DNA of 64,000 nt, from positions 1,736,001 through 1,800,000 of the forward strand of contig NZ_CP041637.1 in the NCBI RefSeq assembly GCF_007197735.1, given 5' to 3'. The notes beneath the pieces were generated by a model that had not been told where the DNA came from, ran no database searches, and saw only the letters and a list, made by a program, of their open reading frames with translations. The position numbers and the translations under genes were made by a program. The first letter of the stretch is position 1; every line of letters begins with the position of its first letter. This DNA comes from Formosa sediminum. Its GTDB lineage: Bacteria > Bacteroidota > Bacteroidia > Flavobacteriales > Flavobacteriaceae. Below are positions 24,622 to 44,593 of this stretch, one piece after another.

Positions 24622-24867
24622 ATTTGTAATTAGTACTGTTTTAAGTCTAAGAAAGTTTGCGTAAATAATTCCGAAGCTATTTTAATACGAAGTTTTAATT
24701 TTTTTTACGTTAATCAACAAAACCACTGATTAAAAAAATGGATATAATGCTTATAGTGAATGTACTATGCTTAAAATATTCGTTAGAATTTAATTATCAA
24801 TAATTTTATAGTGTTTTAATTTTTATTTTCATAATAATACGTATTAATTTCATATTTACTAGTTTTT

Positions 24868-24910
24868 TACTTAAATAATTAAGTATTAATACTTACTTTT
24901 GAATTAAGTA
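24868..24910 (+). promoter_or_regulatory. NarL-like half-site array and -7 box at the nirB promoter
   Basis: Four TACTTA-type heptamers in alternating orientation occupy this region: TACTTAA (24868-24874), TTAAGTA (24879-24885), TACTTAC (24890-24896) and TTAAGTA (24904-24910). Centre spacings are 11, 11 and 14 bases. The middle pair forms a perfect 16-base palindrome (24880-24895). TACTTTTG (24894-24901), a TAnnTTTG match, overlaps its end, 29 bases before the nirB ATG. The heptamer resembles the NarL consensus TACyymT. Binding by the nearby NarL-like regulator is inferred. Confidence 0.6.
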
Positions 24911-24930
24911 ATCGAATAATAACTACGTAT

Positions 24931-27468
24931 ATGAAAAAAGTAATAGTTGTAGGAAACGGCATGGTTGGGTATAAGTTTTGTGAAAAATTTGTAGCCAAAG
25001 AAGGAAGTGAGGCTTATAAAATAACTGTTTTTGGCGAAGAGCCAAGACCTGCATACGATCGTGTTCATTTAAGTGAATTTTTCGAGAGCCAAGATGCTAA
25101 AGCCTTAGAAATGGCGCCTAGGTCTTGGTACGAAGAACATAATATAGAGTTAATTACAGATGTTCGTATTACAGATATTCATAGAGATAAAAAAACAGTA
25201 ACCAGCGTTAATGATGAAGCATACAGTTATGATTACTTAGTATTGGCAACGGGGTCTTCTGCATTTGTACCGCCTATTAAAGGTGTAGAAAAAGAAGGGG
25301 TTTTTGTTTATAGAACCATTGAAGATTTAGAAGGTATGCTTGCCTATGCAGCTAAGTTAAAGGCTAAAAAACCTAATGCTAAAGCTGCTGTTCTTGGTGG
25401 CGGATTGTTAGGTTTAGAGGCCGGTAAAGCAGTAATGGACATGGGTTTGGAACCTCATATTGTAGAATTTGCTCCTAAACTTATGCCAAGACAATTAGAT
25501 TCTAGAAGTAGTCAAGTGTTACAATTGAAATTGGAATCAATTGGATTGAATATTCATTTAAGTAAAGCTACAAATCAAATTCTTGGAGACGAAGGCTATA
25601 TCACCGGATTGGAGTTTGGTGAAGATGATAAACTGGATGTAGAAATGTTAATCATTTCTGCAGGTATACGTCCGCGTGACGAACTTGGAAAAACTTGTGA
25701 TTTAGAAATGGGAGTTCGTGGCGGAATTGTAGTAGATAATAAAATGCAAACGTCAGATCCTAATATTTTTGCAATAGGAGAAGTGGCCTTATATAACCAA
25801 ATGATTTATGGATTAGTCGCTCCTGGTTACGATATGGCCGAAATTGCGGCGAGTCAAATTTTGGGGCAAGTAGAAGTCTTAATGCCTGACGAAATAGATA
25901 TGTCTACCAAACTAAAATTAATTGGTGTAGATGTGGCTAGTTTTGGAGAGCCTTTTATGCCAGCTTCTAAAGGGCATTCGGTTATTTTCGAAAACAAAAC
26001 ACAGCATTTATATAAGCGTATTAACGTAAGTTTAGATGGTAAAAGCTTATTGGGAGGAATCTTGGTTGGCGATGCTTCAGATTATAATATGTTGCATCAA
26101 GTGTATTTAAACGGTATGGCCATTCCCGAAGATGCGGCGCAACTTATTTTACCAGCTACTGAAGGCGGGGCTTTTGGTAGTGCATTAGATTTGCCAGATG
26201 AGGCTCAAATATGTTCTTGCGAGAATGTGAGTAAAGGTCAGATTTGTGGTGCGATTAAAGATGGTTCTTGTCAAGATTTAGCAGGAGTAATCTCAGCAAC
26301 AAAAGCGAGTACAAGCTGCGGTGGATGTAAACCTATGGTTACCGATTTAGTAAACGAAACCCTTAAATCTTTAGGTAAAACCGTTAAAAATGTAATTTGT
26401 GAGCATTTTGATTACAGCCGCCAAGAATTATATGGTATTATAAAAGTAAAAAAACTAACAAGCTTTAACGAGGTTTTAGATGCTTGTGGTACGGGGCATG
26501 GTTGCGAAACTTGTAAGCCTGTGGTATCTTCAATTTTTGCAAGTTTATATAATGTTACACCAAATAAAGAAGATGTTACTCAAGATACCAACGATAAATT
26601 CTTAGCCAACATTCAGCGTAACGGAACGTATTCTGTAGTGCCAAGAATTGCCGGAGGAGAAATTACGCCTGAAGGATTAATTGTCTTAGGGCAAATAGGT
26701 GCTAAATATAATTTATATACCAAAATTACGGGAGGTGCTCGTATAGATTTCTTCGGAGCGCAACTAAACGACTTACCTGCCATTTGGAAAGAATTAATTG
26801 ATGCTGGTTTTGAAAGCGGACATGCCTATGGTAAATCGTTACGAACGGTAAAAAGTTGTGTGGGGTCTACCTGGTGTCGTTATGGTTTAGATGAAAGTGT
26901 CTCTTTTGCAATTGCTTTAGAAAATAGATACAAAGGGTTGCGTTCTCCTCATAAAATTAAAGGCGGTGTGTCTGGATGTATTCGAGAATGTGCAGAGGCT
27001 AGAGGAAAAGACTTCGGAGTTATAGCAGTAGAAGGTGGCTGGAACTTATATGTTGGCGGAAACGGTGGCGCTACACCTAGACATGCCGAATTACTTGCAG
27101 AAAAAATAGATAACGAAACAGTTATTAAATACATAGATCGCTATTTAATGTACTATATACAAACTGCTGCACCGTTAATGCGTACAGCAGCATGGTTAGA
27201 TAAGTTAGAAGGCGGTATTGAGCAACTAAAAAAAATAGTGATTGACGACAGTTTAAATATAGCTGAAGAGTTAGAAAAAGATATGCAATTTCTAGTAGAT
27301 GCTTACGAATGTGAGTGGAAGCAAGCTATAGAAAATGAAGATATGAAAAAACGTTTCAGTCATTTTGTAAATTCAGAAGATCGCGATGATAACTTAGTTT
27401 TTGTACCGCTTAGAGAGCAAAAAATGCCGAAACATTGGGAAAAAGAAACGAAAGCAGCAGTCATATAA
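24931..27468 (+). CDS. nirB: Assimilatory nitrite reductase NAD(P)H large subunit
   Basis: The 845-residue protein reduces nitrite to ammonium in the cytoplasm with six electrons from NAD(P)H. Its N-terminal FAD/NAD module has IVVGNGMVGYKF, the RPAYDRVHLSE segment and VLGGGLLGLEAG. A BFD-like [2Fe-2S] domain lies at about 428-475 (CSCENVSKGQICG ... CGGCKP), with a second Cys-rich piece at CGTGHGCETCKP. The siroheme/[4Fe-4S] domain carries SCVGSTWCRYG (near 642) and GCIRECAEARGKDFG (near 681), giving the four Cys ligands. It starts the nirB-nirD-DUF4202-sensor-regulator run. Confidence 0.96.
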   Translation: MKKVIVVGNGMVGYKFCEKFVAKEGSEAYKITVFGEEPRPAYDRVHLSEFFESQDAKALEMAPRSWYEEHNIELITDVRITDIHRDKKTVTSVNDEAYSYDYLVLATGSSAFVPPIKGVEKEGVFVYRTIEDLEGMLAYAAKLKAKKPNAKAAVLGGGLLGLEAGKAVMDMGLEPHIVEFAPKLMPRQLDSRSSQVLQLKLESIGLNIHLSKATNQILGDEGYITGLEFGEDDKLDVEMLIISAGIRPRDELGKTCDLEMGVRGGIVVDNKMQTSDPNIFAIGEVALYNQMIYGLVAPGYDMAEIAASQILGQVEVLMPDEIDMSTKLKLIGVDVASFGEPFMPASKGHSVIFENKTQHLYKRINVSLDGKSLLGGILVGDASDYNMLHQVYLNGMAIPEDAAQLILPATEGGAFGSALDLPDEAQICSCENVSKGQICGAIKDGSCQDLAGVISATKASTSCGGCKPMVTDLVNETLKSLGKTVKNVICEHFDYSRQELYGIIKVKKLTSFNEVLDACGTGHGCETCKPVVSSIFASLYNVTPNKEDVTQDTNDKFLANIQRNGTYSVVPRIAGGEITPEGLIVLGQIGAKYNLYTKITGGARIDFFGAQLNDLPAIWKELIDAGFESGHAYGKSLRTVKSCVGSTWCRYGLDESVSFAIALENRYKGLRSPHKIKGGVSGCIRECAEARGKDFGVIAVEGGWNLYVGGNGGATPRHAELLAEKIDNETVIKYIDRYLMYYIQTAAPLMRTAAWLDKLEGGIEQLKKIVIDDSLNIAEELEKDMQFLVDAYECEWKQAIENEDMKKRFSHFVNSEDRDDNLVFVPLREQKMPKHWEKETKAAVI

Positions 27469-27502
27469 TTTTTAATAAAATCATGGTTTTAAAATAAAAA
27501 GT

Positions 27503-27880
27503 ATGGAACAATTAGCATCAAAATATAAAACAGTTAAAGAAAGTGACGTTAAAATTTGGTTTAAAGCAGCTCCTGTAGAAGCTTTTCCAAAAGATGGTGG
27601 CGCTTGTGTAAAATATAAAGATTTACAAATAGCAGTATTTAATTTTTCAAGACTTAATACATGGTATGCCTGTCAAAATTTATCACCAGAAAAAAAAGAA
27701 ATGGTATTGTCTAGAGGAATGTTAGGAGATTATAAAGGCATACCAAAGATTGCGTGTCCATTACATAAAAAAACTTTTTCATTAGAAACCGGCGAAAACC
27801 TAAATGGCGATCTAGACCCTATTGCAATTTATCCTGTAAAAATAGAAAACAACGTTGTGTATATCGGATTTTCTGAATAG
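27503..27880 (+). CDS. nirD: Nitrite reductase NAD(P)H small subunit
   Basis: The 125-residue Rieske-fold protein is the partner of NirB. YACQNLSP (near residue 53) and IACPLHKKTFSLETGE (near 85-100) occupy the two ligand loops. As in most NirD proteins, the first loop lacks the Rieske His (C-Q-N instead of C-x-H), so a normal Rieske cluster is unlikely and the role is structural or regulatory. It begins 34 bases after nirB and precedes the DUF4202 gene by 30 bases, in the same operon. Confidence 0.93.
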   Translation: MEQLASKYKTVKESDVKIWFKAAPVEAFPKDGGACVKYKDLQIAVFNFSRLNTWYACQNLSPEKKEMVLSRGMLGDYKGIPKIACPLHKKTFSLETGENLNGDLDPIAIYPVKIENNVVYIGFSE

Positions 27881-27910
27881 ATTTGATAGATATCCAAAAC
27901 ATAATTAACC

Positions 27911-28492
27911 GTGAGTACAAAATTTGAACAGGCTATAGCATTAATTGATGAAAAAAATGCTCAAGACTTAAATCGTGAAATTGATAATGGTAAATCTGTC
28001 CCTAAAGAATTGTTGTACTCTCAGCGTATGACAGCTTGTTTGTTAGATTATATGCCTACAGCTTCCGAAGCTTTACAAATAGCTGTTCGAGCTCAACATA
28101 TTTGTCGTTGGGAGATTCCTAGAAAGGCATATCCTATGACTAAAGCGGGATACATGAATTGGCGCAACGATCTTAAAAAAATGCACGCCAGTTTAACTGC
28201 AGAGATTTTAGAATCGGTTGGTTATGATGACGATTTTATAGCACGCGTTAAATTTATTATTAGTAAAAAAGCACTTAAAAAAGATCCAGATTCGCAGACT
28301 TTAGAAGATGTGGTTTGTTTAGTGTTTCTTCAGTATTATTTTGAAGATTTTGCAAAAAAACATGAAATCGATAGGTTGATAGATATAGTTCAAAAAACTT
28401 GGCGAAAAATGTCTGATGCAGGACATAAAAAAGCAATGACTATACCATTTTCAGAATCTATTTTAAATCTTATAAAAGAAGCATTAGCTTAA
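27911..28492 (+). CDS. DUF4202 family protein in the nitrite reductase operon
   Basis: The 193-residue, mostly helical soluble protein reads from a GTG start (VSTKFEQAIALIDEKNAQD). It has LLYSQRMTACLLDYMP, AVRAQHICRWEIPRKAYPMTKAGYMNWR and VCLVFLQYYFEDFAKKH, recognisable as DUF4202. The conserved His, Arg and Tyr in AQHICRWEIPR and the D-x-Q region suggest an HD-like helical enzyme, but this is only an impression. The family has no established function. It sits 30 bases after nirD and 13 before the sensor kinase, so it is co-transcribed with nitrite reduction. Confidence 0.82.
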   Translation: MSTKFEQAIALIDEKNAQDLNREIDNGKSVPKELLYSQRMTACLLDYMPTASEALQIAVRAQHICRWEIPRKAYPMTKAGYMNWRNDLKKMHASLTAEILESVGYDDDFIARVKFIISKKALKKDPDSQTLEDVVCLVFLQYYFEDFAKKHEIDRLIDIVQKTWRKMSDAGHKKAMTIPFSESILNLIKEALA

Positions 28493-28505
28493 ATACAAGT
28501 ATTGA

Positions 28506-30317
28506 ATGAATGACTTAAGTAGTACGTTAGATAATAGTACATTTAATAGGCTACGTCGTTTATATATTATTGCATTAGGAGCAATTGCATGCTCCGTTTT
28601 TATAAGTCAGCTTATTGTACGCAATTTTTTGCAAGATCAGCAGGACGACTCTACTGTTATTAATGTTGCCGGTCGTCAACGTATGCTTAGTCAGAAATTA
28701 AGCAAAGAAGTGCTATTAATAGCTAATACTACAGATATTTCTAAACGTTTATTACTAAAAGACACTTTAAATAAAACCATTAAGCGATGGAAAACGGCGC
28801 ATATAGCTTTACAACAGGGCAGTGATAGCTTAAAAGTCTCTGGTACAAACAGCGATAAAATTATTGAAATGTTTTCCCGATTGGAGGTCAAGTTTTTGGC
28901 TATGTATCAAGCGTCTCAGAGCATTATTTCAAAAATAGAACAAAATCCCACAATAGATCAAGCTTTTCTTGAACCTGATGTAAAACAAGTTACTGCTAAC
29001 GAATATCAATTTTTAACAATTATGGATACGATTGTTAATCAATATGATGTAGAAGCTAATGAAAAGGTAAATCTATTACGCAATTGGGAGTTGTTTTTAA
29101 TGGTATTTACACTATTATTATTATTTCTTGAATTTTTATTCATTTTCAAACCTACTGCTAAAATGGTTAAAGAGACCATTACAAGGTTATTGCATTCTGA
29201 ACAAAAAGCTATTAAAGCAGCTTATGAAGCCGATGAGTTAAGAGAAGAAAATGAAAAATCTGTTAAAGAACTCCGAGTACTAAATCAAGCTATGGATAAA
29301 GCCTTGTTGTTTGCAAGAGTAACACCAGAAGGCGCAATTTTACATATAGGAGAAAAATTTTCTAAACTTTTTGAACACTCTAAGTTTAATATTAATATAA
29401 ATTTTTCTGAGTTAATTACTACCGAAAAAAAAGGACAACAGTATATTGATCACATTTTAAAAACCTATTATAAATCGGGATGGCAAGGCGAAATTAAAGC
29501 AACTAAAACCACGGGAGAATTGCTTTGGTTAGAAATGTATATCATTCCAATTTATTCTAAAATTGAAAAATCTGAAATTCTAATTATCGCTTCAGATATT
29601 ACTGAAAAAAAAGAAGCGCAATTAGAAGTCGAATCGTTAACAAAATTGAGTTACGAAGAGAAGATGAATCAACAGAAAATTATTTCTAGTAAAATTATAG
29701 AAAACCAGGAGCAAGAACAAAATCGAATTGCCAAAGATATACACGATGGGATTGGCCAAATGTTAACGGGTTTAAAATATAATTTAGAAAGCGTAAATCT
29801 AAATGATTTAGAAAAGGCGACTACCAAAATAGAATTGCTCAAAAATTTAACCGCCGATATTATTCAAGGTGTTCGTGCAGCTACTTTTAATTTAACACCT
29901 CCAGAATTGAGCGATTATGGTATTGTGCCAGCACTCGCAAAACTTACACAAGAACTTGCAAAACTTACAGGTAAAACTATAGAAATTTATAACCGTAAAA
30001 ATTTTAATAAACGTTTAGATTCTTTAGTAGAAATTAATATCTATCGCATCACTCAAGAAGCAATTAATAATGCCATAAAATATGCCGATTCTACATATAT
30101 TTTAGTTTCTATTTTTCATACAGACACTATGTTAAGTATTACGATTGATGATGATGGTAAAGGATTTGATGTCAATCGTCCTAAAAATATTAAAACTGGA
30201 GTAGGAGGTATGGGAATGACGTTTATGAATGAAAGAATTAATTATATTAACGGTAGGCTGTTTTTAAATTCATCTCCAGAAACAGGTACCCGAATTACAT
30301 TAAATATCCCAATTTAA
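28506..30317 (+). CDS. NarX/NreB-like sensor histidine kinase with nitrate-type P-box
   Basis: The 603-residue membrane kinase has TM1 (about 19-38) and a periplasmic four-helix domain beginning VINVAGRQRMLSQKLS (51-66), the P-box of NarX/PilJ-type sensors that binds nitrate in NarX. TM2 (about 195-214), a coiled linker, a PAS-like domain (about 264-370), HisKA_3 with phospho-acceptor His413 in RIAKDIHDGIGQ, and an HATPase domain with TQEAINNAIKYA and DDDGKGFD follow. It phosphorylates the NarL-type regulator encoded 63 bases downstream. Its place between nirBD and the nitrate transporter supports nitrate or nitrite as the signal. Confidence 0.9.
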   Translation: MNDLSSTLDNSTFNRLRRLYIIALGAIACSVFISQLIVRNFLQDQQDDSTVINVAGRQRMLSQKLSKEVLLIANTTDISKRLLLKDTLNKTIKRWKTAHIALQQGSDSLKVSGTNSDKIIEMFSRLEVKFLAMYQASQSIISKIEQNPTIDQAFLEPDVKQVTANEYQFLTIMDTIVNQYDVEANEKVNLLRNWELFLMVFTLLLLFLEFLFIFKPTAKMVKETITRLLHSEQKAIKAAYEADELREENEKSVKELRVLNQAMDKALLFARVTPEGAILHIGEKFSKLFEHSKFNININFSELITTEKKGQQYIDHILKTYYKSGWQGEIKATKTTGELLWLEMYIIPIYSKIEKSEILIIASDITEKKEAQLEVESLTKLSYEEKMNQQKIISSKIIENQEQEQNRIAKDIHDGIGQMLTGLKYNLESVNLNDLEKATTKIELLKNLTADIIQGVRAATFNLTPPELSDYGIVPALAKLTQELAKLTGKTIEIYNRKNFNKRLDSLVEINIYRITQEAINNAIKYADSTYILVSIFHTDTMLSITIDDDGKGFDVNRPKNIKTGVGGMGMTFMNERINYINGRLFLNSSPETGTRITLNIPI

Positions 30318-30380
30318 TTAGATGTTTTTACTTATTTTTTGGTTATTTTGCTACGTATTAAATAGAATGTTTTTAAGTAT

Positions 30381-31034
30381 ATGATAAATGTAATATTGGC
30401 GGACGATCATATTTTGGTTCGTGATGGAATTAAATCTTTATTAGAAGATCAAGAAGGTGTACATGTTATAGCAGAAGCATCTAATGGGAAAGAAGCTTTA
30501 GAGATTGTAGCTTTAAAACGCCCTGATGTCCTCATTGTAGATATTCGAATGCCTGAAATGAATGGGATAGAAGTGGTCGCCGAATTAAAAAAAAATAATA
30601 TAGCTATAAAAACTTTAGTGCTTTCCATGCACGATTCTGAGGAGTATGTATTAAACGCAATAAACGCAGGAGCAGATGGTTACTTGTTAAAAGGATCTAG
30701 TAAAGAAGAGTTTATGAAAGCCTTACATATGATTGCTAGCGGTGGAAAATATTTTACAGGAGATATATCTTCCATAATAGTGAATAGTATGATGAACAAT
30801 GGAGGACATCTGTCTCAAGCACAAGAAGTCCCAGAACCCACTTTTAAACTAACAAAACGTGAAAAACAAATTTTAGGTTTGGTGTTAGATGGGAAAAGTA
30901 ATAAGGAAATAGCTGAAGATTTAGATGTTAGTAAGCGAACTGCCGAGGTTCATCGGTTCAATTTAATGAAAAAACTTGAAGTGAAAAATTTAATTGAATT
31001 AACTAAAGTAGCTTCTAAGTATAAGTTGGTGTAG
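30381..31034 (+). CDS. NarL/FixJ-family response regulator
   Basis: The 217-residue protein has a receiver domain (1-120) with acidic D8/D9, phospho-acceptor D54 in LIVDIRMPEM, S82 and K104. A LuxR-type helix-turn-helix (about 152-210) reads LTKREKQILGLVLDGKSNKE, then the recognition helix around VSKRTAEVHR. It is the cognate partner of the preceding HisKA_3 kinase. It probably binds the TACTTA-type half-sites found upstream of nirB, narK and moeA; this is inferred from NarL family behaviour and gene context. Confidence 0.92.
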   Translation: MINVILADDHILVRDGIKSLLEDQEGVHVIAEASNGKEALEIVALKRPDVLIVDIRMPEMNGIEVVAELKKNNIAIKTLVLSMHDSEEYVLNAINAGADGYLLKGSSKEEFMKALHMIASGGKYFTGDISSIIVNSMMNNGGHLSQAQEVPEPTFKLTKREKQILGLVLDGKSNKEIAEDLDVSKRTAEVHRFNLMKKLEVKNLIELTKVASKYKLV

Positions 31035-31109
31035 CCTATATCATTATATTATAGCTTTTTAGGTCTAATTTTTAAAGGATTAATAATTTAAGCTTGAAAT
31101 TTTACTATC

Positions 31110-31168
31110 TACGTAATAATTGAAAAATTACGTATATTTTTACGTATAAATTAAGTATTATTACTTAG
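31110..31168 (+). promoter_or_regulatory. NarL-like half-site array upstream of the narK-type gene
   Basis: Five related heptamers lie here: TACGTAA (31110-31116), TTACGTA (31128-31134), TTACGTA (31140-31146), TTAAGTA (31151-31157) and TACTTAG (31162-31168). Centres are 18, 12, 11 and 11 bases apart, close to helical phasing. The last pair is separated by four bases exactly as in the nirB site and is followed by TTTTA (TAGTTTTA, one mismatch from TAnnTTTG). It ends 31 bases before the transporter ATG. Confidence 0.6.
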
Positions 31169-31199
31169 TTTTATGCTGTAAACGTAAAATTCCAATGTT

Positions 31200-32615
31200 A
31201 TGAATTCAACAAAAGCTACTAAATTAGACCTTTTAAATGTTAAAAGTCTACCGATCCGTACATTTTGGATTACCTCTATTGCCTTTTTCTTATGTTTCTT
31301 TGCTTGGTTTGGTATTGTGCCATTTATGCCAGATGTTGTAAAAGATTTAGGTTTAACACCTTCACAAAAGTGGAACTCTATCATACTTGCAGTTTCAGGG
31401 ACTGTATTTGCTCGTTTATTAATTGGTAAATTATGCGATAAATACGGGCCAAGATTATGTTATTCGTGGTTACTAGTGTTGGGAGCAATTCCAGTAATCT
31501 TATTAGGGTTAGTGCAAACACCGCTTCAATTTTTAATCTGTAGATTTTTTATTGGATTTATTGGTGCTTCATTTGTTATTACCCAATTTCATACCTCTAT
31601 CATGTTTGCCCCAAATATTGTGGGTACTGCAAATGCGACTTCTGCGGGATGGGGAAATTTAGGAGGTGGAGCAAATCGTTTAGGTATGCCTTTAATTGCT
31701 GCAGCTGTAGTTGCTTTTGGAGCTGCAGAATCTGAAGCTTGGCGTTACTCTATGGTTGTTGCTGGTGTGGTTTGTTTTCTAATGGGACTTGTATATTACA
31801 ATTTTACACAAGATACTTTACAAGGGAATTACAAGGATTTAAAAGCAACAGGAGAGATGCCGGTAGCTAAAAAAGATGATGTTGGTTTTTTAGAAGCTAT
31901 AAAAGATTATCGTGTTTGGATTTTATTTTTAGTTTATGCAGCGTGTTTTGGAATAGAATTGACGGTGTACGGAACTATGGATGATTATCTTCAAAATACG
32001 TTTCAATTAGAACGTGTTACTGCTGGTAACATTGTATTGTCTTTCGCTTTAATGAATATTTTTGCTCGAACTTTGGGTGGTTTTTTTGGAGATTTATTTG
32101 GGAAATTAAAAGGATTAAGAGGACGCGTTTTATTCTTAGCTACAATTTTAGCCGTAGAAGGAATTGTTTTAGCATTATTCTCTACAGCCACCGGAATTAT
32201 TTTAGGAATAACATTATTAATTTTGTTTAGCTTATCTGTCCAAATGGCTGAAGGTGCTACATTTTCAGTTGTTCCATTTGTGAATTCTAAAGCTATTGGT
32301 TCAATATCTGGAATTGTAGGAGCAGGAGGAAATGTTGGAGCCTTTTTAGCTGCTATTTTATTGAAATCAAAATCTGCTATAGCAGAAAAAGCGGCAATAA
32401 CGGCTACAGAGGGCATGGGTGCCGAAGCGGTTCAGGCTGCACAATCTGCAGCATCATCTGCAGCAGTATCTAGCGGATTTTTACTTATAGGAATTATTGT
32501 AGTTTGTGTTGCAGTAGGCGTACTGGCTATTAAATTCTCTACAGCTACAAACGAAATTGTTGAAAGAGAAATTGAAGAAGATTTAGAAGCCGAAATATTA
32601 ACACAATCTATTTAA
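31200..32615 (+). CDS. narK: NarK/NasA-type nitrate/nitrite MFS transporter
   Basis: The 471-residue major facilitator protein has 12 predicted helices. Both nitrate-signature motifs are visible: GWGNLGGGANRLGMPL (about 150-165, TM5) and SGIVGAGGNVGAFLAAI (about 371-387, TM11). A cytoplasmic loop near 200-235 is charged. An Ala-rich stretch (about 400-425) precedes the last helix and an acidic tail. It would import nitrate (or exchange nitrite) at the inner membrane for the reductases around it. It starts a new transcription unit after the regulator, behind its own operator array. Confidence 0.94.
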   Translation: MNSTKATKLDLLNVKSLPIRTFWITSIAFFLCFFAWFGIVPFMPDVVKDLGLTPSQKWNSIILAVSGTVFARLLIGKLCDKYGPRLCYSWLLVLGAIPVILLGLVQTPLQFLICRFFIGFIGASFVITQFHTSIMFAPNIVGTANATSAGWGNLGGGANRLGMPLIAAAVVAFGAAESEAWRYSMVVAGVVCFLMGLVYYNFTQDTLQGNYKDLKATGEMPVAKKDDVGFLEAIKDYRVWILFLVYAACFGIELTVYGTMDDYLQNTFQLERVTAGNIVLSFALMNIFARTLGGFFGDLFGKLKGLRGRVLFLATILAVEGIVLALFSTATGIILGITLLILFSLSVQMAEGATFSVVPFVNSKAIGSISGIVGAGGNVGAFLAAILLKSKSAIAEKAAITATEGMGAEAVQAAQSAASSAAVSSGFLLIGIIVVCVAVGVLAIKFSTATNEIVEREIEEDLEAEILTQSI

Positions 32616-32684
32616 AAAATAAGTCGTCTTAATAGATAGTTTCATTACTTTTAATTGAATAGCTAATATATTTAAAATCTTATT

Positions 32685-37654: not shown

Positions 37655-38658
37655 CCTCCAATAGTAATCATACTTCTGTTATTGGTGTGATTCTCTGGTT
37701 TGTTTAGTGTTTCAAAATCTGTCATACCTGCACGAACGGCATGTTTCTTATTAATTAAATTAGAGATAAGTGGTTCTATATTTTCACCATGTCTGTAAGC
37801 AGCTAAAAGATTGGTTTCTTGGTTAGAGAATAAGCAATTTTTAATATTTCCATTAGCTGTTAATCGGATTCTATTACAGCTGTCGCAAAAAGGATTACTT
37901 ACCGAACTAATAATACCAAATGTACCTTTAAACCCTTTTATCTGATAATTTCTAGAGGTGAAATTAACCTCGTTTGGTAGTGAAATTAAAGCTTCTGCTC
38001 CAAAATGCGAATGGGTTTGTTCTAAAATTTCGGCTTGGGTTACTAATTTCTCTTTGTTCCAATTGTTTCCATCAAAAGGCATAAATTCTATAAAACGTAT
38101 TGAAATCGGTAAGTGTTTGGTGAATTGTATAAAATCTATGATTTCATCATCATTAAAACCTTTAATCAGAACCACATTCATTTTTACATTAAAACCTTGT
38201 TCTAATAAAAGAATGATGTTGTTGTAGGCCGCTTTAAACTGATTTCTTCTGGTAATAAATGTAAATTTATCGGCATCTAAACTGTCTAAACTAACATTAA
38301 TATCGTATAACCCAAAACGTTTAAAGTCTGCTATAAAACGGTCTACCAATACCGCATTAGTCGTAATGGATAACTTGGTGTTTAAAGTGGATAAGCGTTC
38401 AAGAATTTCAGAGAAATCTTTTCTGACTAACGGTTCTCCGCCAGTTAATCTGATTTTTGAAACGCCGTGCTTAACAAAAATAGAGGCGATTTTAAAAAGC
38501 TCATCGGCCGTCATTATATTGCTTTTAGGCGTTAGCGGTACACCGTGTTCTGGCATACAATAGGTACAACGTAAATTACATTTTTCGGTTAATGAAAGCC
38601 GTAAATACGTGTGTTTTCTGTTAAACGTATCAGTTAATATGTTGGTTTCACTAATCAT
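37651..38658 (-). CDS. moaA: GTP 3',8-cyclase MoaA
   Basis: The 335-residue radical SAM enzyme performs the first step of molybdenum cofactor synthesis. The N-terminal cluster motif is CNLRCTYCMPEHG (C-x3-C-x2-C). The C-terminal second [4Fe-4S] motif is FCDSCNRIRLTANGNIKNC. The chain ends in the required Gly-Gly (ITIGG), which inserts into the active site. It is last in the moeA-to-moaA operon, one base after the moaC-moaB gene, and overlaps the rubredoxin gene tail to tail by four bases. Confidence 0.96.
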   Translation of the reverse strand: MISETNILTDTFNRKHTYLRLSLTEKCNLRCTYCMPEHGVPLTPKSNIMTADELFKIASIFVKHGVSKIRLTGGEPLVRKDFSEILERLSTLNTKLSITTNAVLVDRFIADFKRFGLYDINVSLDSLDADKFTFITRRNQFKAAYNNIILLLEQGFNVKMNVVLIKGFNDDEIIDFIQFTKHLPISIRFIEFMPFDGNNWNKEKLVTQAEILEQTHSHFGAEALISLPNEVNFTSRNYQIKGFKGTFGIISSVSNPFCDSCNRIRLTANGNIKNCLFSNQETNLLAAYRHGENIEPLISNLINKKHAVRAGMTDFETLNKPENHTNNRSMITIGG

Positions 38659-38659
38659 C

Positions 38660-39565
38660 TTAATGCTGTTGCCCTCTTAATATTTTAAAAATATGAAGCA
38701 CGTGAGGGAATACTGCATCCATAGATTCTTTAGCGCCATTTGTAGAGCCTGGTAAAGCCAAAACCAGACAGTTTCCTATGGTTCCTGCTACACTTCTAGA
38801 TAGCATTGCATACGGCATGCGGTCTTGACCATAACTTCTAATAGCTTCTTCAATACCTGGAATTCTGCGTTCTAAAATGGGCTCTAAAGCTTCAGGGGTA
38901 ACATCTCTAAAAGATAATCCTGTACCTCCAGTAAATATGATAAGATTATTGATTTCTGATAATTCTAAGGCTTTAGTTCGTATCTGTTCTACTTCATCAG
39001 GGATAATATCGTAATTCTGAATGTTAACCGCGTTTGCCTCTAATTTTTCTATAATCGCTTTGCCTGCAAAATCTTCTTTTTTACCTGCCGAAATAGAATC
39101 TGAACACACAATCACACTAGCTTTTAAAGCAGATATTTGTTTGGTTTTAAAACTGCTCTTACCACCTTTTTTTTCGATTAATTTTATAGAGCCAATTTCA
39201 ATTTGTTTGTCAATTGGTTTTAGCATATCGTACATGGTAAGTGCCACAACAGAAGCGCCATGCATGGCTTCTACTTCAACTCCTGTTTTGTAAATGGTTT
39301 TTACATTAAATAAAATATGTATGTTTAAACCTTCAATAGTATAAGTAACAGACGTGAATTCTATAGGCAACGGATGACAATCTGGAATTACGGTATGCGT
39401 ATTTTTTACTGCAAAAAGTCCGGCGGTTTTAGCCATTTCAAAAACATTTCCTTTAGGAACTAAATTTTGCTGTAACGCTTCAATGGTTTCAGGTTTACTT
39501 ACCGTAACAATAGCAGTTGCTGTTGCGGTGCGTAATGTGTTTATTTTGTGGGTAATGTCTACCAT
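38660..39565 (-). CDS. moaCB: MoaC-MoaB/MogA fusion (cPMP synthase + molybdopterin adenylyltransferase)
   Basis: The protein is 301 residues from ATG 39565. The frame is open 19 codons further, but that overlaps moaE, while MVDITHKINTLRTATATAIV is the normal MoaC start. The N-terminal MoaC domain (1-145) has KGNVFEMAKTAGLFAVKNT, PDCHPLPI and VEVEAMHGASVVALTMYDM. The C-terminal MoaB/MogA domain (about 150-300) has FTGGTGLSFRDVTPEAL and the VLALPGST region. MoaC completes cyclic pyranopterin monophosphate and the second domain adenylates molybdopterin. The start codon begins one base after the moaE stop. Confidence 0.92.
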   Translation of the reverse strand: MVDITHKINTLRTATATAIVTVSKPETIEALQQNLVPKGNVFEMAKTAGLFAVKNTHTVIPDCHPLPIEFTSVTYTIEGLNIHILFNVKTIYKTGVEVEAMHGASVVALTMYDMLKPIDKQIEIGSIKLIEKKGGKSSFKTKQISALKASVIVCSDSISAGKKEDFAGKAIIEKLEANAVNIQNYDIIPDEVEQIRTKALELSEINNLIIFTGGTGLSFRDVTPEALEPILERRIPGIEEAIRSYGQDRMPYAMLSRSVAGTIGNCLVLALPGSTNGAKESMDAVFPHVLHIFKILRGQQH

Positions 39566-39566
39566 A

Positions 39567-40004
39567 TTATGTAATATTTGTTTTCCATTGGTGAGAATTG
39601 TCTTCAAAAATTTCTTTACCAAAAATGGGTACTTTCTTTTTTATAATGTTAACAAGATATTCTGTGGCGGCATATACATCTTTGCTATGTTTGGCAGAAA
39701 CGAATACAAAAAAACAGAGTTCTCCTGCCTTAACCGTGCCTAAGCTGTGGTAAATATGCATACAGGTTAGGTTAAATGTTTTAAATGCTTTTTCACGTAT
39801 ATCTGCAATCTGTTCTAAAGCCATATCTTCGTAGGCGGTAAAATCTATAGCAGCAACTGTTTTATGGTCTATAACATCTGCACGTACTTGTCCTAAAAAA
39901 ATATTATGTCCACCAATAGTATGTTTGCTTTGGTGTTTAGCAATAGAATCTGCTATAAAACTAGGTGGTATGGCGCCTTCAATAAAGATATTTTTCATTT
40001 TCAT
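39567..40004 (-). CDS. moaE: Molybdopterin synthase catalytic subunit MoaE
   Basis: The 145-residue MoaE adds sulfur to cPMP together with MoaD. GGHNIFLGQVR (31-41), LEYEDM-like FTAYEDMALEQI, RLGTVKAGE-like HSLGTVKAGE and the catalytic-lysine region VPIFGKEIFEDNSHQW are all readable. Length is normal. It is 52 bases downstream of moaD, the only sizeable gap in the operon, and directly precedes moaCB. Confidence 0.94.
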   Translation of the reverse strand: MKMKNIFIEGAIPPSFIADSIAKHQSKHTIGGHNIFLGQVRADVIDHKTVAAIDFTAYEDMALEQIADIREKAFKTFNLTCMHIYHSLGTVKAGELCFFVFVSAKHSKDVYAATEYLVNIIKKKVPIFGKEIFEDNSHQWKTNIT

Positions 40005-40056
40005 TAGTTTGCTTTTAAAGTCAGTTTTTAAAAATAGTTAATCCAAATGCTTTGTT

Positions 40057-40293
40057 TTATCCGCCTGCAAAAGGAGGTAAAAGTGCAATTTCGTCTTGTA
40101 ATTGCAGCGTAATATCTTCGGAATCTTGAACGAGTTTGCGGTTTAATGCGACATGAAATGAGTCTGGATTAAACTTGTATTTTATATTTAAATCTTCAAG
40201 TAATTCCGATAATTTTACGGCTTTAAAATCAAGTTGCTCTTCATTACATTGGGTGTGTTCGGCTAGCATGCCAAAATATTTTATTGTAATCAT
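40057..40293 (-). CDS. moaD: Molybdopterin synthase sulfur carrier MoaD
   Basis: The 78-residue ubiquitin-like protein ends LLPPFAGG; the C-terminal Gly-Gly is thiocarboxylated to carry sulfur to MoaE. The ITIKYFGMLAEHTQC start and HVALNRKLVQDSEDITLQ core match the family. It overlaps the preceding Met8-like gene by four bases. The MoeB-type enzyme that activates MoaD is not in this window. Confidence 0.94.
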   Translation of the reverse strand: MITIKYFGMLAEHTQCNEEQLDFKAVKLSELLEDLNIKYKFNPDSFHVALNRKLVQDSEDITLQLQDEIALLPPFAGG

Positions 40294-40880
40294 TTGTTTT
40301 GTTTTTTAGAAACTAATCCTTCGGTAACTTTATTCATTTCGTCTACTTTAGCTTGAAAATCACCTTTTAAGGTTTTTCTGTAGGTGTTTAAGTTTGATAC
40401 CAATTCAGTAATATCTTCTGGAAGAATTTCTTCAAATAACTGACGTAAACGTTTTGCTGTAGTTGGCGATTTTCCGTTTGTAGAAATGGCGATTTTTACG
40501 TGACCTTTGGTGACAATTCCACCTAAATAAAAATCGCATTGGTCTGGTGTGTCTGCAATATTTACAAGAAGATGTTTGGCTTTTGCTTCTTGATTAATTT
40601 GAAGATTAACATTTAAATTGTCTGTACAGCCAATAACAAAATGACGTTGTTCTAAATCTGAAATGTCATACGCTTTCTGAATTAAATTTACGTTAGGATG
40701 CTGTGCTGCCAAATCTTTAAGTTCGTCTAAAAAATTTATAGAAACCACATCTACATTGGCATTTGGGCTAGATTTTAAAAGAAAACTTAATTTCTCTAAA
40801 CCAACATTTCCGCCACCTACTATAAGGACGTCTAGCTGATTTACTTTTAAAAATACGGGATATAATTCGTTACGTTCCAT
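40290..40880 (-). CDS. Precorrin-2 dehydrogenase / sirohydrochlorin ferrochelatase (Met8/CysG-N type)
   Basis: The 196-residue protein has NAD-binding VLIVGGGNVGLEKLSFLL near 16-33. The family motif LVNIADTPDQCDFYLGG follows near 98-114, then KIAISTNGKSPTTAKRLRQ. It oxidises precorrin-2 and inserts iron to make siroheme, the prosthetic group of NirB. It sits one base after cobA and overlaps moaD by four, tying siroheme and molybdenum cofactor supply into one operon. No methyltransferase domain is fused, as cobA is separate. Confidence 0.92.
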   Translation of the reverse strand: MERNELYPVFLKVNQLDVLIVGGGNVGLEKLSFLLKSSPNANVDVVSINFLDELKDLAAQHPNVNLIQKAYDISDLEQRHFVIGCTDNLNVNLQINQEAKAKHLLVNIADTPDQCDFYLGGIVTKGHVKIAISTNGKSPTTAKRLRQLFEEILPEDITELVSNLNTYRKTLKGDFQAKVDEMNKVTEGLVSKKQNK

Positions 40881-40881
40881 G

Positions 40882-41691
40882 TTATTTTGTTATCGGTTCT
40901 ATGTCTAAATTTTGATATATAAAATCGTCTTCCATAAATTGTTCATTAAAATAAGTCAGTAAACTTTTATGGCCGTTTACGACTTCTCCGATAATAATAA
41001 TGGCAGGCGATGAGAGTTGTTTGTCTTGTACTAAATTTATAATATTTGATATGGTGCCAACAGCCTGTTTGGCTTCTTTTTTGGTGCCGTTTTGTATTAC
41101 AGCTACAGGCATATCAGCCCGTTTGTTCTGTTTGTAAATGGCTACAATTTCGGTAAGTTTAGACATGCCCATTAAAATAACAACTGTGGCTGTAGATTGG
41201 GCAGCTAAGGTAATGTCGCTAGAAATTGTACGATTAGAAGTTGTACCTGTAATCACCCAAAAACTCTCAGAAACTTTACGGTGCGTAACAGGAATTCCAA
41301 CCGAAGCAGGAACGGCTATGGCTGAGGTAATTCCTGGAATAATGGCCGTTTTTATACCAAACCCTTCTAGGTAATCTGTTTCTTCTTTGCCACGACCAAA
41401 AACAAAAGGGTCTCCACCTTTTAGTCGTACAACTTTACCGTATTTTTTAGCGTAACTCACTAACAAATCGTTAATCTGGTCTTGTGTGTAACTGTGATTG
41501 CCTTTACGTTTTCCTATATATAATTTAACGGCATGTGGTGCATGTTCTAAAATATCTTCATTAACCAAAGCATCGTAGAGTACAGCTTTGGCTTTGTTAA
41601 GTGCTTTTACAGCTTTTAAAGTCAGTAAATCTGGGTCTCCTGGACCAGCCCCAACAAGCGTCACTTTAGGTTGAATGTCTGCTTTTTTCAT
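40882..41691 (-). CDS. cobA: Uroporphyrinogen-III C-methyltransferase (SUMT)
   Basis: The 269-residue enzyme methylates uroporphyrinogen III twice with SAM, giving precorrin-2. VTLVGAGPGDPDLLTLKAVKAL is the family start, RLKGGDPFVFGRGKEE the SAM/substrate loop and IPGITSAIAVPASVGIPVTHR the third motif. It feeds the downstream Met8-like enzyme for siroheme. It overlaps mobA by four bases. A C-terminal extension of about 15 residues is acidic and unremarkable. Confidence 0.95.
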   Translation of the reverse strand: MKKADIQPKVTLVGAGPGDPDLLTLKAVKALNKAKAVLYDALVNEDILEHAPHAVKLYIGKRKGNHSYTQDQINDLLVSYAKKYGKVVRLKGGDPFVFGRGKEETDYLEGFGIKTAIIPGITSAIAVPASVGIPVTHRKVSESFWVITGTTSNRTISSDITLAAQSTATVVILMGMSKLTEIVAIYKQNKRADMPVAVIQNGTKKEAKQAVGTISNIINLVQDKQLSSPAIIIIGEVVNGHKSLLTYFNEQFMEDDFIYQNLDIEPITK

Positions 41692-42272
41692 AATTTACGC
41701 TGTATTAAAGTTTGTAATTCGGCTTGGGTGTTAATGTTATATAACGCATCAAAATCTCGTGCTGCTACTTGTATGCGATGATACGTAGAAGACTGAATGA
41801 GGTGCATTAACTTTAAATGATTCTGCTGAATAGCAACTTCAAAACGTTCTAAATTTTTAGTGCTATACATCCCAATTAAAGGGTAATCTCTAGTACGGTC
41901 TGAAACAAAAGCAATGTTAGAATTAATTACTTTTGAATGTATTAAATACCGGTTTATAATATGGGTTGATATCATAGGGATATCGCAACTTAATATTAAA
42001 TTTTGTTGAGTACTTGTATGTGATAATGCTGTGTGGATACCTCCTACAGGTCCTTTGTTTTTATAAATATCTGCAATCAAAGGATAGTTGTAAACACTAT
42101 AATCTGTATTTTCTGTAATAAGAAATATCTGATTGGAGATGGGTTTTACGGCCTCTAAAATCCATTCTATAAACGGTTTGTTTTTAAACACAACTAGTCC
42201 TTTCTCTGTTTGCATACGAGAACTTTTTCCGCCACAAAGAATATAAACAGATATGTGTTTTTGTATATTCAT
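41688..42272 (-). CDS. mobA: Molybdenum cofactor guanylyltransferase MobA
   Basis: The 194-residue nucleotidyltransferase has the signature LCGGKSSRMQTEKGLVVFKN (GTP-binding, about 12-31), then GPVGGIHTAL and LSCDIPMIS with the metal-binding Asp. It converts Mo-molybdopterin to the bis-MGD cofactor required by the NasA-like domain. It overlaps cobA by four bases and shares one base with the permease gene upstream. Confidence 0.93.
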   Translation of the reverse strand: MNIQKHISVYILCGGKSSRMQTEKGLVVFKNKPFIEWILEAVKPISNQIFLITENTDYSVYNYPLIADIYKNKGPVGGIHTALSHTSTQQNLILSCDIPMISTHIINRYLIHSKVINSNIAFVSDRTRDYPLIGMYSTKNLERFEVAIQQNHLKLMHLIQSSTYHRIQVAARDFDALYNINTQAELQTLIQRKL

Positions 42273-43018
42273 TAAAACATAAATAATTTAATAGATGCTA
42301 AGACCAGTACAAGTGATAGCATATAGGTTAACTTAACATTTGAAAATTTCTGACTACCATATATAGCACCTAATGTACCGCCAACTAATGCAAAAGGAAT
42401 GAGGTAGAAGGATTCCGTTGGGAAACTGTCGTTTTTTAAAAGAAAACCAACAATACCTGAGAGAGAATTTACAAATATAAATAGTGCAGAAACGGCTGCC
42501 GATTCTTTTGTAGTTCCCCAAGCTAAAAGTAAAATTATCGGACTTAATATGATGCCACCTCCAATACCAATCATACCTGAAAACAACCCAATGCCACAGC
42601 CAATAACTAATGCAAGGGGCAGGTTTACAGATTTTAGCGTGGTTTGCTCTTTACCAAAAACACCCAAAATACGTAAGACAGCAATGATTAAAAATGCACC
42701 TAAAATTTGCTTGTATAAAGTAGTATTAATGGTAAGGTAACCACCAATAAACGCAGCCGGGATAGAAGTTATGGCAAACGGATAAAATAGATTCCATTTA
42801 AAATGCTTATTCTTTTTAAAATACCAGAATGAAATACCACTCACAAAAATATTAAGCAAAAGCGCAGTCGGTTTAATTATAGCAATAGGAAATGTAAATA
42901 AAGCCATTAATGCTAAGTAACCACTAGCACCACCATGTCCTACCGAAGCGTATAAAAAGGAAATACACACCAGGATGACAGCAAATATTATAAATACATT
43001 TGTGCTAAGAAATTCCAT
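42272..43018 (-). CDS. TauE/SafE family permease in the Moco operon
   Basis: The 248-residue membrane protein has about eight helices. The TauE/SafE pattern of two internally related halves is visible as VGHGGASGYLALMAL (about 27-41) and GLFSGMIGIGGGIILSPIILLL (about 143-164). Family members move sulfite, sulfonates or other organic or inorganic anions. It overlaps the ModE-like gene by 14 bases and mobA by one, so it is firmly in the Moco operon. A link to oxyanion transport (molybdate, nitrite or sulfite) is an inference from context; no modABC genes are present here. Confidence 0.88.
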   Translation of the reverse strand: MEFLSTNVFIIFAVILVCISFLYASVGHGGASGYLALMALFTFPIAIIKPTALLLNIFVSGISFWYFKKNKHFKWNLFYPFAITSIPAAFIGGYLTINTTLYKQILGAFLIIAVLRILGVFGKEQTTLKSVNLPLALVIGCGIGLFSGMIGIGGGIILSPIILLLAWGTTKESAAVSALFIFVNSLSGIVGFLLKNDSFPTESFYLIPFALVGGTLGAIYGSQKFSNVKLTYMLSLVLVLASIKLFMF

Positions 43019-43349
43019 TAGTCTCGGGCTTAAATTCGTTGTTTAAAAAGGTTTCACATTTGGTGTTTAATTGTTCAAATTCTGTAATTAGCTGTTTCCC
43101 ATAAGGCGTTAAAGTGGAGCTACCACCAGATTTTCCTCCAATAGATTTAACTAATATAGGTTGGTCTGCCAATTGTTCTATATCGCGTATTAAGGTCCAA
43201 GCTTTTTTATAAGACATATTTAAAGCTTTAGCAGCTGCTGTAATGGAGTGTTTACTTTCTATTTTTTTTAGTAATGCAATTTTGCCGTAACCTAAAAAGG
43301 GTTTCCCATCTTTTTCAATCCAAATTCTACTTTTAATTTCCATAGCCAT
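43005..43349 (-). CDS. ModE-type winged-helix regulator (N-terminal domain only)
   Basis: The 114-residue protein matches the DNA-binding half of ModE: FLGYGKIALLKKIESKHSIT, then the helix-turn-helix AAAKALNMSYKKAWTLI and the wing region GGKSGGSSTLTPYGKQLI. The C-terminal TOBE/molbindin domains that sense molybdate are absent, so any ligand must be bound differently or by a partner. It overlaps moeA by 17 bases and the permease by 14. It probably controls molybdenum-related genes, perhaps this operon. Confidence 0.88.
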   Translation of the reverse strand: MAMEIKSRIWIEKDGKPFLGYGKIALLKKIESKHSITAAAKALNMSYKKAWTLIRDIEQLADQPILVKSIGGKSGGSSTLTPYGKQLITEFEQLNTKCETFLNNEFKPETNGIS

Positions 43350-44517
43350 TTAAATTTATACAGGTTACTCTATCTTGAGGTTTTAAGGTTTCTACATTTT
43401 CTGGAATAGTGACTAAAACGTTACTAGTCGCAAATGTGTTTAACATTGAGGATTGCTGGTTAGGTAAAATACTTACTTGGCCCGCGTTATAAAAAGCTTT
43501 TAAAAATAAAGTCTTGCCAGTCGTGTTCTTAAAATCAGAATTAATTTGGGCTTCTAGTCTTGGTAAATGATAGTCGCTAAAGCCAGAATACTTTTTTAAA
43601 AGGGGGAGCACGTACACGTAAAAACAAGTTAACGCAGAAGCGGGATTTCCAGGAAGCGCAAATACAAACTGCTGATCTTTTTTACCAAACCAAAGTGGTT
43701 TTCCTGGCTTTTGGTTGATTTTGTAAAAAGTTTCGTCGACAAAATTTTGATTTAATGCTTCTTTTACAAAATCGTAATCTCCAACCGAAATTCCGCCAGA
43801 TATTAAAAGTACATCCCCATATTCTAGAGCTTTCTTAATTGCTTTTTTAGTGGCTTTTAAAGTGTCTTTGGCCTTAAATGTTTTTACTTTATGTGTCCCA
43901 AATCGGTGTAAAGCCATTTGCAACATAACCGAATTACTTTCGTAAATGGCGCCTTCTTTTAAAGGTTTTCCAGGTTTTTGCAATTCATTTCCAGTAACTA
44001 AAATAGATACTTTTGGAGGTGAAAATACGTGCACTTCTTTAAAACCTAAACCTGCTAAAAAACCAATACCTCCTTCATTTAATACCATGCCTTTATTTAA
44101 AACACAATCCCCTTTTTTTACTTGCTCTCCAATGGGTCTAATATTAGCCCCTTTTTTAGGCATATTGGTAATTAGAAATTTATCATCTATTCTAGAGACG
44201 TGTTCTTGCATAACCACCGTATCTGCATTTTCAGGAACTTTGGCACCTGTAAATATACGTGCAGCTTCAGAGTGTTCTAAATGTATAGTGTTAGCATCAC
44301 CAGCTTTGGATTCGTTAGTAACAGTAAAGGTTTTATTTTCATTCCAAATTAGAGCATATCCATCCATAGCCGATTGTCTGAAATTAGGCATATTTATAGG
44401 AGCAATAATATTTTCGGCTAAAACATGGCCTAAAGCTTTTGAAATTTGTAGCTCTTTAATTTGAGGCGTAACCTTAGTCTCGTCTATAATGTTTAAAGCA
44501 CGTTTAACTGAAATCAT
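43333..44517 (-). CDS. moeA: Molybdopterin molybdenumtransferase MoeA
   Basis: The 394-residue enzyme inserts molybdate into adenylated molybdopterin. Visible motifs are MPNFRQSAMDGYAL, ARIFTGAKVPENADTVVMQE, SILVTGNEL, LLISGGISVGDYDFVKEAL and FALPGNPASALTCFYVYVLP. Domain order and length match E. coli MoeA (411). It is the first gene of the ten-gene minus-strand operon and lies 59 bases downstream of a nirB-like operator. Four-base and longer overlaps downstream imply strong translational coupling. Confidence 0.95.
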   Translation of the reverse strand: MISVKRALNIIDETKVTPQIKELQISKALGHVLAENIIAPINMPNFRQSAMDGYALIWNENKTFTVTNESKAGDANTIHLEHSEAARIFTGAKVPENADTVVMQEHVSRIDDKFLITNMPKKGANIRPIGEQVKKGDCVLNKGMVLNEGGIGFLAGLGFKEVHVFSPPKVSILVTGNELQKPGKPLKEGAIYESNSVMLQMALHRFGTHKVKTFKAKDTLKATKKAIKKALEYGDVLLISGGISVGDYDFVKEALNQNFVDETFYKINQKPGKPLWFGKKDQQFVFALPGNPASALTCFYVYVLPLLKKYSGFSDYHLPRLEAQINSDFKNTTGKTLFLKAFYNAGQVSILPNQQSSMLNTFATSNVLVTIPENVETLKPQDRVTCINLNGYGN

Positions 44518-44575
44518 ATATTTAAGCGTTATGTCTTGCCGAATATAACGAATAAAATAACTCGAAATACAAAAA

Positions 44576-44593
44576 CTAAGTATTTTTACGTAG
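44576..44593 (-). promoter_or_regulatory. nirB-like operator upstream of moeA
   Basis: CTAAGTA-TTTT-TACGTAG has the same 7-4-7 layout as the sites before nirB and narK. Read on the minus strand it ends TACTTAG followed by TTTTTG, the same extension seen at the other two. It lies 59 bases before the moeA ATG. Shared control of cofactor and reductase genes is inferred. Confidence 0.55.

Follow-up and report, generated by a model that had tools for sequence, protein, structure and literature searches.

The nitrate-responsive two-component systems NarX-NarL and NarQ-NarP of Escherichia coli have nirB, narK and molybdoenzyme genes among their targets, and several short sites of the heptamer consensus TACYYMT, in the case of NarL paired in the 7-2-7 form, are found per promoter. 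FNR sites have the form TTGAT-N4-ATCAA. For Bacteroidetes, a class of nitrate-sensor histidine kinases with a PAS domain and without a HAMP domain (NSHK) has been described (PMC8199190). A -7 box TAnnTTTG at -12 to -5 is given for Bacteroidota promoters in the part of PMC9723704 used here, and a -33 motif is reported as absent from F. johnsoniae promoters in the part of PMC7366714 covered. In the present analysis, a stretch of 64,000 nucleotides from Formosa sediminum (NZ_CP041637.1, positions 1,736,001 to 1,800,000, hereafter the window), which contains a nitrate island, was examined for an 18-bp palindrome with the core TAMGTA-N4-TACKTA (the N4 site), present before nirB, narK and moeA (Table 1). 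This palindrome is probably the core operator unit of the NarX/NarL-type system encoded in the island, which would control a regulon for nitrate import and reduction, with occlusion relieved by nitrate as the slightly favoured mode of action.

The three palindromes had been reported in an earlier note on this DNA, and their coordinates were correct when checked in the sequence of the window. The same note had each of them run into a T tract that nearly makes a TAnnTTTG box, which holds for narK (one mismatch) and for moeA, where TAGTTTTTG is one base too long, and not for nirB, where the box TACTTTTG is perfect. The exact degenerate form TAMGTANNNNTACKTA (TAMGTA-N4-TACKTA) was found at 7 places in the 3.93-Mb genome vs 3 for the reversed control, and 3 of the 7 are those inside the window. 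Another two are located at 3.588 Mb, one before an FNR-like gene and one before the substrate-binding protein of a nitrate-type ABC transporter. The permease and the ATPases of this transporter matched nitrate transporters best, with one ATPase scoring over the curated cut-off and the other two proteins under it. The remaining two (103188 and 2617693) look like noise and are not promoter-like, the one lying over the 3' end of a 123-amino-acid open reading frame (ORF) directly before an rpoB-like ORF and the other between convergent ORFs (gene names by eye). Mismatched palindromes were rejected as a genome-wide signal, their counts being at chance: 11 matches in the window vs 11.7 expected with two mismatches allowed, and 39 genome places vs 49 for the reversed control with one. 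A scan of the own genome for TACGTA-N(4-17)-TACGTA arrays was not specific either (9 places, two of them at narK, vs 6 for the control).

Conservation was determined in 199 genomes evenly drawn from the Flavobacteriaceae, for which regions were fetched and genes were called. Counts for nirB and narK cover all gene-bearing genomes of the 199, as do those for the FNR-like gene, whose upstream region is free in 27 of 34; counts for moeA, cobA, nasA and nrtA cover the fetched regions, some of which were fetched because the strict motif was present. NarK was found in 33 genomes and NirB in 46, which are the same 46 that have the NarL-like regulator of the island; 34 of these 46 also have the FNR-like protein, which was found in no others. 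The N4 site was present before nirB in 46/46 genomes, the centre being no more than about 130 nt away from the called start (43 genomes in the main scan and 3 recovered after a check of region cuts or start codons). In free upstream regions, it was found before narK in 27/33 (exact) or 32/33 (within one mismatch), before nrtA in 30/33, before the FNR-like gene in 25/27, before the regulator gene in 19/39 and before nasA in 14/36; in the fetched regions, it preceded cobA in 8/8 and moeA in 8/8. The free upstream regions of nirD (0/21), the DUF4202 gene (0/15) and moaA (0/6) did not contain it. Unassigned genes carried the N4 site in 37 of 363 cases, and pairs with other gaps were few among them (N3 in 4, N5 in 1, N2 in 2, N6 in 1, reversed in 0). 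When the strict motif fused to the -7 box was searched for, 94 matches in 48/199 genomes were obtained vs 4 matches of the reversed control (two palindromic places counted twice). The enrichment in relatives for which the earlier note had proposed a test was seen, with the motif concentrated upstream of nir, narK and nrt genes.

The palindrome is accompanied by further hexamers of the types TACGTA, TAAGTA and TACTTA. Over the 150 nt upstream of nirB, narK, nrtA, the FNR-like gene, the regulator gene and cobA, their density was 17-27 per kb, compared with 7 before nasA and 1.6-1.8 elsewhere. Their spacings peak at 10, 20-24, 30-34 and 42-43 bp, and at narK also at 11-13 bp; these are counts by gene, to which no phasing test was applied because orthologous promoters are not independent. 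The hexamers form an array on one helix face, with the 18-bp palindrome as its tightest pair. A perfect TAnnTTTG box begins 14 bp from the start of the palindrome at 36/44 nirB, 17/26 narK, 17/25 FNR-like and 5/16 nasA sites; its offset is +22 to +25 at 19/23 regulator sites and -15 to -17 at 25/32 nrtA sites, and no recurring offset was seen among 9 moeA sites. With the box set at -12 to -5 (PMC9723704, as far as covered), the centres of the sites fall at about -18.5, -27.5 and +11 relative to the predicted starts, and the array would cover -26 to -11 in the promoters of nirB, narK and the FNR-like gene. For the regulator gene the covered stretch would be about -35 to -20, and for nrtA, whose predicted start lies about 12 bp after the start of a TATATTTG box, the region after the start. 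A perfect -7 box within 100 nt was present at nirB in 37/44, narK in 27/33, nrtA in 30/33, the FNR-like gene in 15/27, the regulator gene in 23/39 and other genes in 57/243 cases. A search for the spacing of a -33 TTTG yielded too few cases for use, and a TTG 17-23 bp upstream of the -7 box was rare both at the target promoters and at other genes.

The motif followed the NarL-like regulator of the island, as the earlier note had suspected, across the family, other families, named loci and the regulator tree. Within the family, the strict motif was present in 43/46 genomes with the regulator vs 5/153 without it (Fisher p 3e-34). For the test outside the family, 295 genomes of the class were used, of which 15 had NirB, 11 of these belonging to other families. 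A regulator ortholog was located near nirB in two of the 11 (G462, 64% identity; G402, 61%), both with the site, which in G402 has one mismatch and is accompanied by four hexamers; the nine others had only regulator relatives of at most 42% identity, and the N4 site was found before nirB in 0/9 of them; within 200 nt, eight had no hexamer either. The survey of named genomes covered 60 of 80 loci with a regulator relative, and the 20 others are at 35-41% identity. At the 39 loci where the regulator reaches 50% identity or more (not counting Lewinellaceae), 104 sites were present vs 0.3 expected (Markov-1), with at least one site in 37/39, and the 17 loci with a regulator of at most 42% identity contained 1 site in total. 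A branch with 99/97 support divides the regulator tree, and one of its two sides holds 38/39 site-bearing rows, four Lewinellaceae and two short contigs. The regulators of Algoriphagus (L241, L246, L247, L249 and L250), a member of another family, nest inside those of the Flavobacteriaceae and the operator is kept there, which suggests that the nitrate island and its cis-sites were transferred together into Algoriphagus. Control by this regulator appears well supported by these comparisons, and putative direct control by the NarX/NarL-type two-component system of the island is the best reading.

The presence of a NarL-like regulator in the island was confirmed by Pfam, with the receiver domain PF00072 and the GerE domain PF00196 both above the cut-off, as in the NarL/FixJ class. 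By sequence, its best match among solved structures was NarL (1a04), and its score of 157.8 bits was below the NCBIfam NarL equivalog cut-off of 250. The recognition helix SKRTxExHRFNLM, unlike that of NarL, was kept in at least 95% of 43 orthologs. The heptamers had also been thought to resemble the NarL consensus, and this was not borne out: NarL 7-2-7 sites were found in 0/220 upstream regions of seven target classes, and the recognition helix differs. Single TACYYMT heptamers on either strand were tried as a signal and discarded as uneven and not specific (88/363 other genes have one). In the kinase, PilJ (PF13675), HisKA_3 and HATPase_c were identified by Pfam and VINVAGRQRMLSQKL by eye, in agreement with the NSHK class, which is defined by HisKA_3, HATPase and a NarX-type sensor domain whose nitrate-binding helix is conserved. 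The DUF4202 gene, the kinase gene and the regulator gene lie in this order between nirBD and narK. A DUF4202 gene near nirBD was very common across the family (45 genomes), and the term DUF4202 was not found in the literature searched.

Table 1. Features of the nitrate island and its upstream sites, in positions of the window.
Feature	Position	Strand	Remark
Hexamers TACGTA/TAAGTA/TACTTA before nirB	24838..24929	+	at 24838, 24868, 24880, 24890, 24905, 24924
18-bp palindrome TTAAGTA-N4-TACTTAC	24879..24896	+	upstream of nirB; N4 site before nirB in 46/46 nirB-bearing family genomes
-7 box TAnnTTTG, perfect, TACTTTTG	24894..24901	+	last TA of the nirB palindrome is first TA of the box
Predicted transcription start, nirB	near 24906	+	from box at -12 to -5 (PMC9723704, part used)
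nirB, NADH nitrite reductase large subunit	24931..27468	+	NCBIfam TIGR02374
nirD, nitrite reductase small subunit	27503..27880	+	NCBIfam TIGR02378
DUF4202 protein, frequent nirBD neighbour	27911..28492	+	Pfam PF13875
Nitrate/nitrite-sensing-type histidine kinase; PilJ-type sensor with VINVAGRQRMLSQKL, PAS, HisKA_3, HATPase	28506..30317	+	Pfam; class in PMC8199190 (part used)
Hexamers before regulator gene	30329..30379	+	at 30329, 30352, 30374 (23, 22 bp apart); no N4 pair
NarL-like response regulator, putative array binder	30381..31034	+	Pfam Response_reg + GerE
Five hexamers before narK	31110..31167	+	at 31110, 31129, 31141, 31152, 31162
18-bp palindrome TTAAGTA-N4-TACTTAG	31151..31168	+	upstream of narK
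narK -7 box TAGTTTTA	31166-31173	+	follows narK palindrome; one mismatch to TAnnTTTG
narK, nitrate/nitrite MFS transporter	31200..32615	+	best match TIGR00886, 293.7 bits, just under cut-off 311.7
Nitrate reductase, NasA/NasC type, fused to NirB-like FAD reductase domain, 1174 aa	32685..36209	+	matches below curated cut-offs
Rubredoxin-domain protein with weak nitrite/sulfite reductase half-domain match	36206..37654	+	Pfam
moeA, modE-like, 42272-43018 ORF, mobA, cobA, cysG-N, moaE, moaCB, moaA run	37651..44517	-	cofactor and sirohaem synthesis
Palindrome CTACGTA-N4-TACTTAG (minus-strand reading)	44576..44593	-	upstream of moeA; then TAGTTTTTG

The proposal that three transcription units share one site held for nirB and narK, which have a conserved operator in common, and was weaker for moeA. 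Five further moeA regions were fetched. The moeA site is kept in the sibling G014, a genome without an FNR-like match, as TACGTAAAAATACGTA, 66 nt before moeA, and in G143 a site lies 38 nt before moeA; four of four other relatives in which moeA stands apart have no site within 400 nt upstream. For 7 of the 8 moeA sites, the gene on the other side is a divergent FNR-like gene, and all 8 cobA sites are the site of the divergent nirB. The moeA and cobA sites are therefore not independent, being common to the divergent FNR-like and nirB genes. A family-wide link to moeA, initially drawn from the count of 8/8, was dropped after the stand-alone moeA genes without a site were found, and a putative nitrate control of moeA is supported for this genus and G143, not family-wide. 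A second palindrome, CGTTATATTCGGCAAGACATAACG (minus strand, 44527-44550), is located directly before moeA and is unlike the nitrate operator. The moeA promoters of relatives mostly show a similar palindrome, CGTTATATTTG...ACATAACG, and this CGTTATATTTG-like palindrome is taken by us to resemble the ModE box. A ModE-type DNA-binding protein is encoded beside moeA (43005-43349).

Among the 37 site-bearing unassigned genes, 22 can be recognised as further targets or parts of targets, namely 14 ORFs of 137-142 amino acids, 4 cut nasA genes, 3 ORFs of 492-496 amino acids and 1 cut nirB; one of the three ORFs of 492-496 amino acids was examined and is an MFS transporter (Pfam). The copy of the 137-142-amino-acid ORFs at locus L142, the only one run through Pfam, is a globin. 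The run behind the same operator at this locus (2868-6434) comprises the globin, a Tll0287-like protein, a small membrane-type ORF, an FAD/NAD/2Fe-2S reductase and a multihaem cytochrome c. Such a globin run often adjoins the FNR-like gene, and it may handle nitric oxide or nitrite stress.

In the proposed mechanism, the kinase would sense periplasmic nitrate or nitrite, and the regulator would bind TAMGTA hexamers in neighbouring helical turns on one face of the DNA. The TAMGTA-N4-TACKTA pair would nucleate binding; at nirB, narK and the FNR-like gene, the end of this pair mostly lies within the -7 box. Bound in this way, the regulator would govern nitrate import (narK, nrtABCD) and nitrate/nitrite reduction (nasA, nirBD), together with cofactor genes in some lineages (moeA in this genus, and cobA if the nirB site is common to both) and the globin operon in relatives. 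The bound array would occlude RNA polymerase, and nitrate would relieve the occlusion. This mode is slightly favoured over activation from inside the core promoter, because the array overlaps the core promoter (nirB, narK, the FNR-like gene, the regulator gene) or follows the start (nrtA), and it is also suggested by -7 boxes close to consensus.

Several results weigh against control of the N4 site by this regulator or against its generality. At narK, N6 pairs are also present in 12/33 and N5 pairs in 5 genomes; the N4 site precedes nasA in fewer than half of the genomes and the regulator gene itself in about half, with no such pair at the regulator gene of this genome. The dependent moeA and cobA sites and the site-less stand-alone moeA genes point in the same direction. 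Since the 46/199 family genomes with NirB are also those with the regulator, and the two are never apart, the tie within the family could be linkage, and the separating cases are only the 11 other-family genomes, in which the site-less NirB is also more distant. A regulator relative is located near nirB without a site in G437 (42% identity) and G485 (36%). The two site-less loci of the 39 are short contigs, one of 9.1 kb (L236), with narK beside the regulator gene, and one of 6.2 kb, and the strict -7-fused form is absent from G001, G024 and G075, in which the regulator is present. The N4 pair was found in 0/4 loci of the Lewinellaceae (54-64% G+C). All four have hexamer clusters before nirB and nasA, and in L257, L258 and L259 (62-64% G+C) TACGTA-N5-TACGTA shares a TA with a TAGATTTG box at nirB, with an 11-bp instead of a 10-bp step. 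The A/C letter of the half-site varies with the regulator subtype (27:49 vs 253:87, with genomes whose regulator was not fetched counted in the second group), and this difference may be a single ancestral change.

Other explanations of the palindromes were weighed against this regulator. That they are chance or generic AT-rich promoter sequence would agree with the mismatch-tolerant counts at chance level in window and genome, and is refuted by the conservation of the strict motif (94 vs 4 control matches), by the 104 sites vs 0.3 expected at the named loci and by three sites each in Algoriphagus aestuariicola (51% G+C) and Chryseolinea lacunae (53% G+C), which leaves this explanation a negligible probability. 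The FNR-like regulator encoded beside nrtA (G000:C1, 3588009-3588755; Pfam cNMP_binding and HTH_Crp_2; CxxC-x4-C plus a central Cys, by eye) was considered as the binder, as AAGTA-N4-TACTT has the Crp/FNR 5-4-5 geometry with G third from the centre, its own promoter carries the operator, as in 25/27 genomes, and its gene adjoins nrtA or narK in many of them. No match to it at E <= 1e-40 was obtained in 12/46 genomes with the regulator and nirB, one of them that of the same-genus sibling G014, and all 12 keep the nirB site; it was rejected as the binder on this ground, and its gene is for the same reason more likely a target. The hexamer steps of 11-13 bp at narK and the N5 pair of three Lewinellaceae are also ill-suited to a rigid Crp/FNR dimer, and binding by this protein is judged unlikely. 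The called ORF of the FNR-like protein in G113 was seen to be missing the N-terminal Cys cluster. A third protein that is inherited and lost together with the island might bind the motif instead: co-inheritance cannot name the binder, and annotation covered some of the unassigned ORFs of the fetched regions. Among the assigned genes, however, the genes of the kinase and the NarL-like regulator are the only regulatory ones repeatedly found next to nirB, and the motif tracks the regulator clade even after the apparent transfer into Algoriphagus; the chance of such a protein is rated as low as that of the FNR-like one.

With the operator and the NarL-like regulator retained, the sign of control may be the opposite one, the phosphorylated form occupying -26 to -11 and the upstream hexamers, contacting sigma and replacing the missing -33 element. 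Such an activator, a serious possibility that nevertheless ranks below the preferred reading, would give nitrate induction, which is the expected logic, and would account for the register of palindrome and -7 box, fixed in three unrelated promoters, and for the rarity of a TTG 17-23 bp upstream of the box. In contrast, the nrtA site lies after the predicted start (TAnnTTTG 15-17 bp upstream of the palindrome, 25/32) and cannot activate in the usual way, the -7 boxes are near consensus, and a -33 motif is in any case reported as absent from F. johnsoniae promoters (PMC7366714, part covered) and is rarely shown by other genes here. Occlusion relieved by nitrate has two difficulties of its own: a NarL-type regulator that represses assimilation genes would go against the usual nitrate-on logic unless the polarity of the kinase is inverted, and the fixed +14 register in unrelated promoters exceeds what a simple repressor needs. 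A more elaborate form of it, which is speculative and on balance doubtful, would have a HAMP-less kinase with inverted polarity keep the NarL-like regulator as a cooperative filament on phased TACGTA hexamers across the -7 box and the start; nitrate would disassemble the filament and thereby switch the assimilation regulon on, and the array logic would extend, with changed spacing, from the Flavobacteriaceae to Cytophagales and Lewinellaceae.

No description of the motif or the regulon was found in a literature search judged by titles and abstract openings and by the parts of PMC8199190 and PMC8510549 that were covered, with subscription journals mostly outside its scope; within it, no published operator or regulon was found for nitrate use in Flavobacteria, an abundant marine group. 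The analysis provides a cis-element, the regulator that probably reads it and a list of putative targets, namely narK, nrtABCD, nasA, nirBD, the FNR-like regulator, the globin operon and, for this genus, moeA. These results bear on how Bacteroidota regulators act at promoters without a recognisable -33 element.

The system resembles NarX-NarL and NarQ-NarP of E. coli in its PilJ/NarX-type kinase and NarL/FixJ-type regulator, in having nirB, narK and molybdoenzyme genes as putative targets and in the several short sites per promoter. It is unlike NarX-NarL in that the helix SKRTxExHRFNLM stands in place of TESTVKVHVKHML of NarL, in that 7-2-7 TACYYMT sites are absent from the upstream regions searched, and in that the operator sites overlap the core promoter. 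With FNR/NtcA-type nitrogen regulators, it shares a palindrome with a 4-bp gap, as in FNR sites, and an FNR-like gene that carries the operator; unlike in those systems, this gene is absent from 12/46 genomes in which the nirB site is kept, and it is probably a target itself. The kinase has a PAS domain and, as a class, no HAMP or GAF domain (PMC8199190, part covered), which again differs from E. coli. Sensor domain, PAS, HisKA_3 and nearby nitrate genes agree with the Bacteroidetes NSHK class, for which neither an operator nor a target list nor a promoter logic in Bacteroidetes is stated in the covered part of PMC8199190. The -7 box TAnnTTTG of the Bacteroidota sigma-A promoter (PMC9723704 and PMC7366714, in part) is used here as well, and unlike in the general promoter it mostly shares two bases with the operator half-site. 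The system would be a NarX/NarL-type nitrate system of known kind, with a putative new operator class placed in the core promoter.

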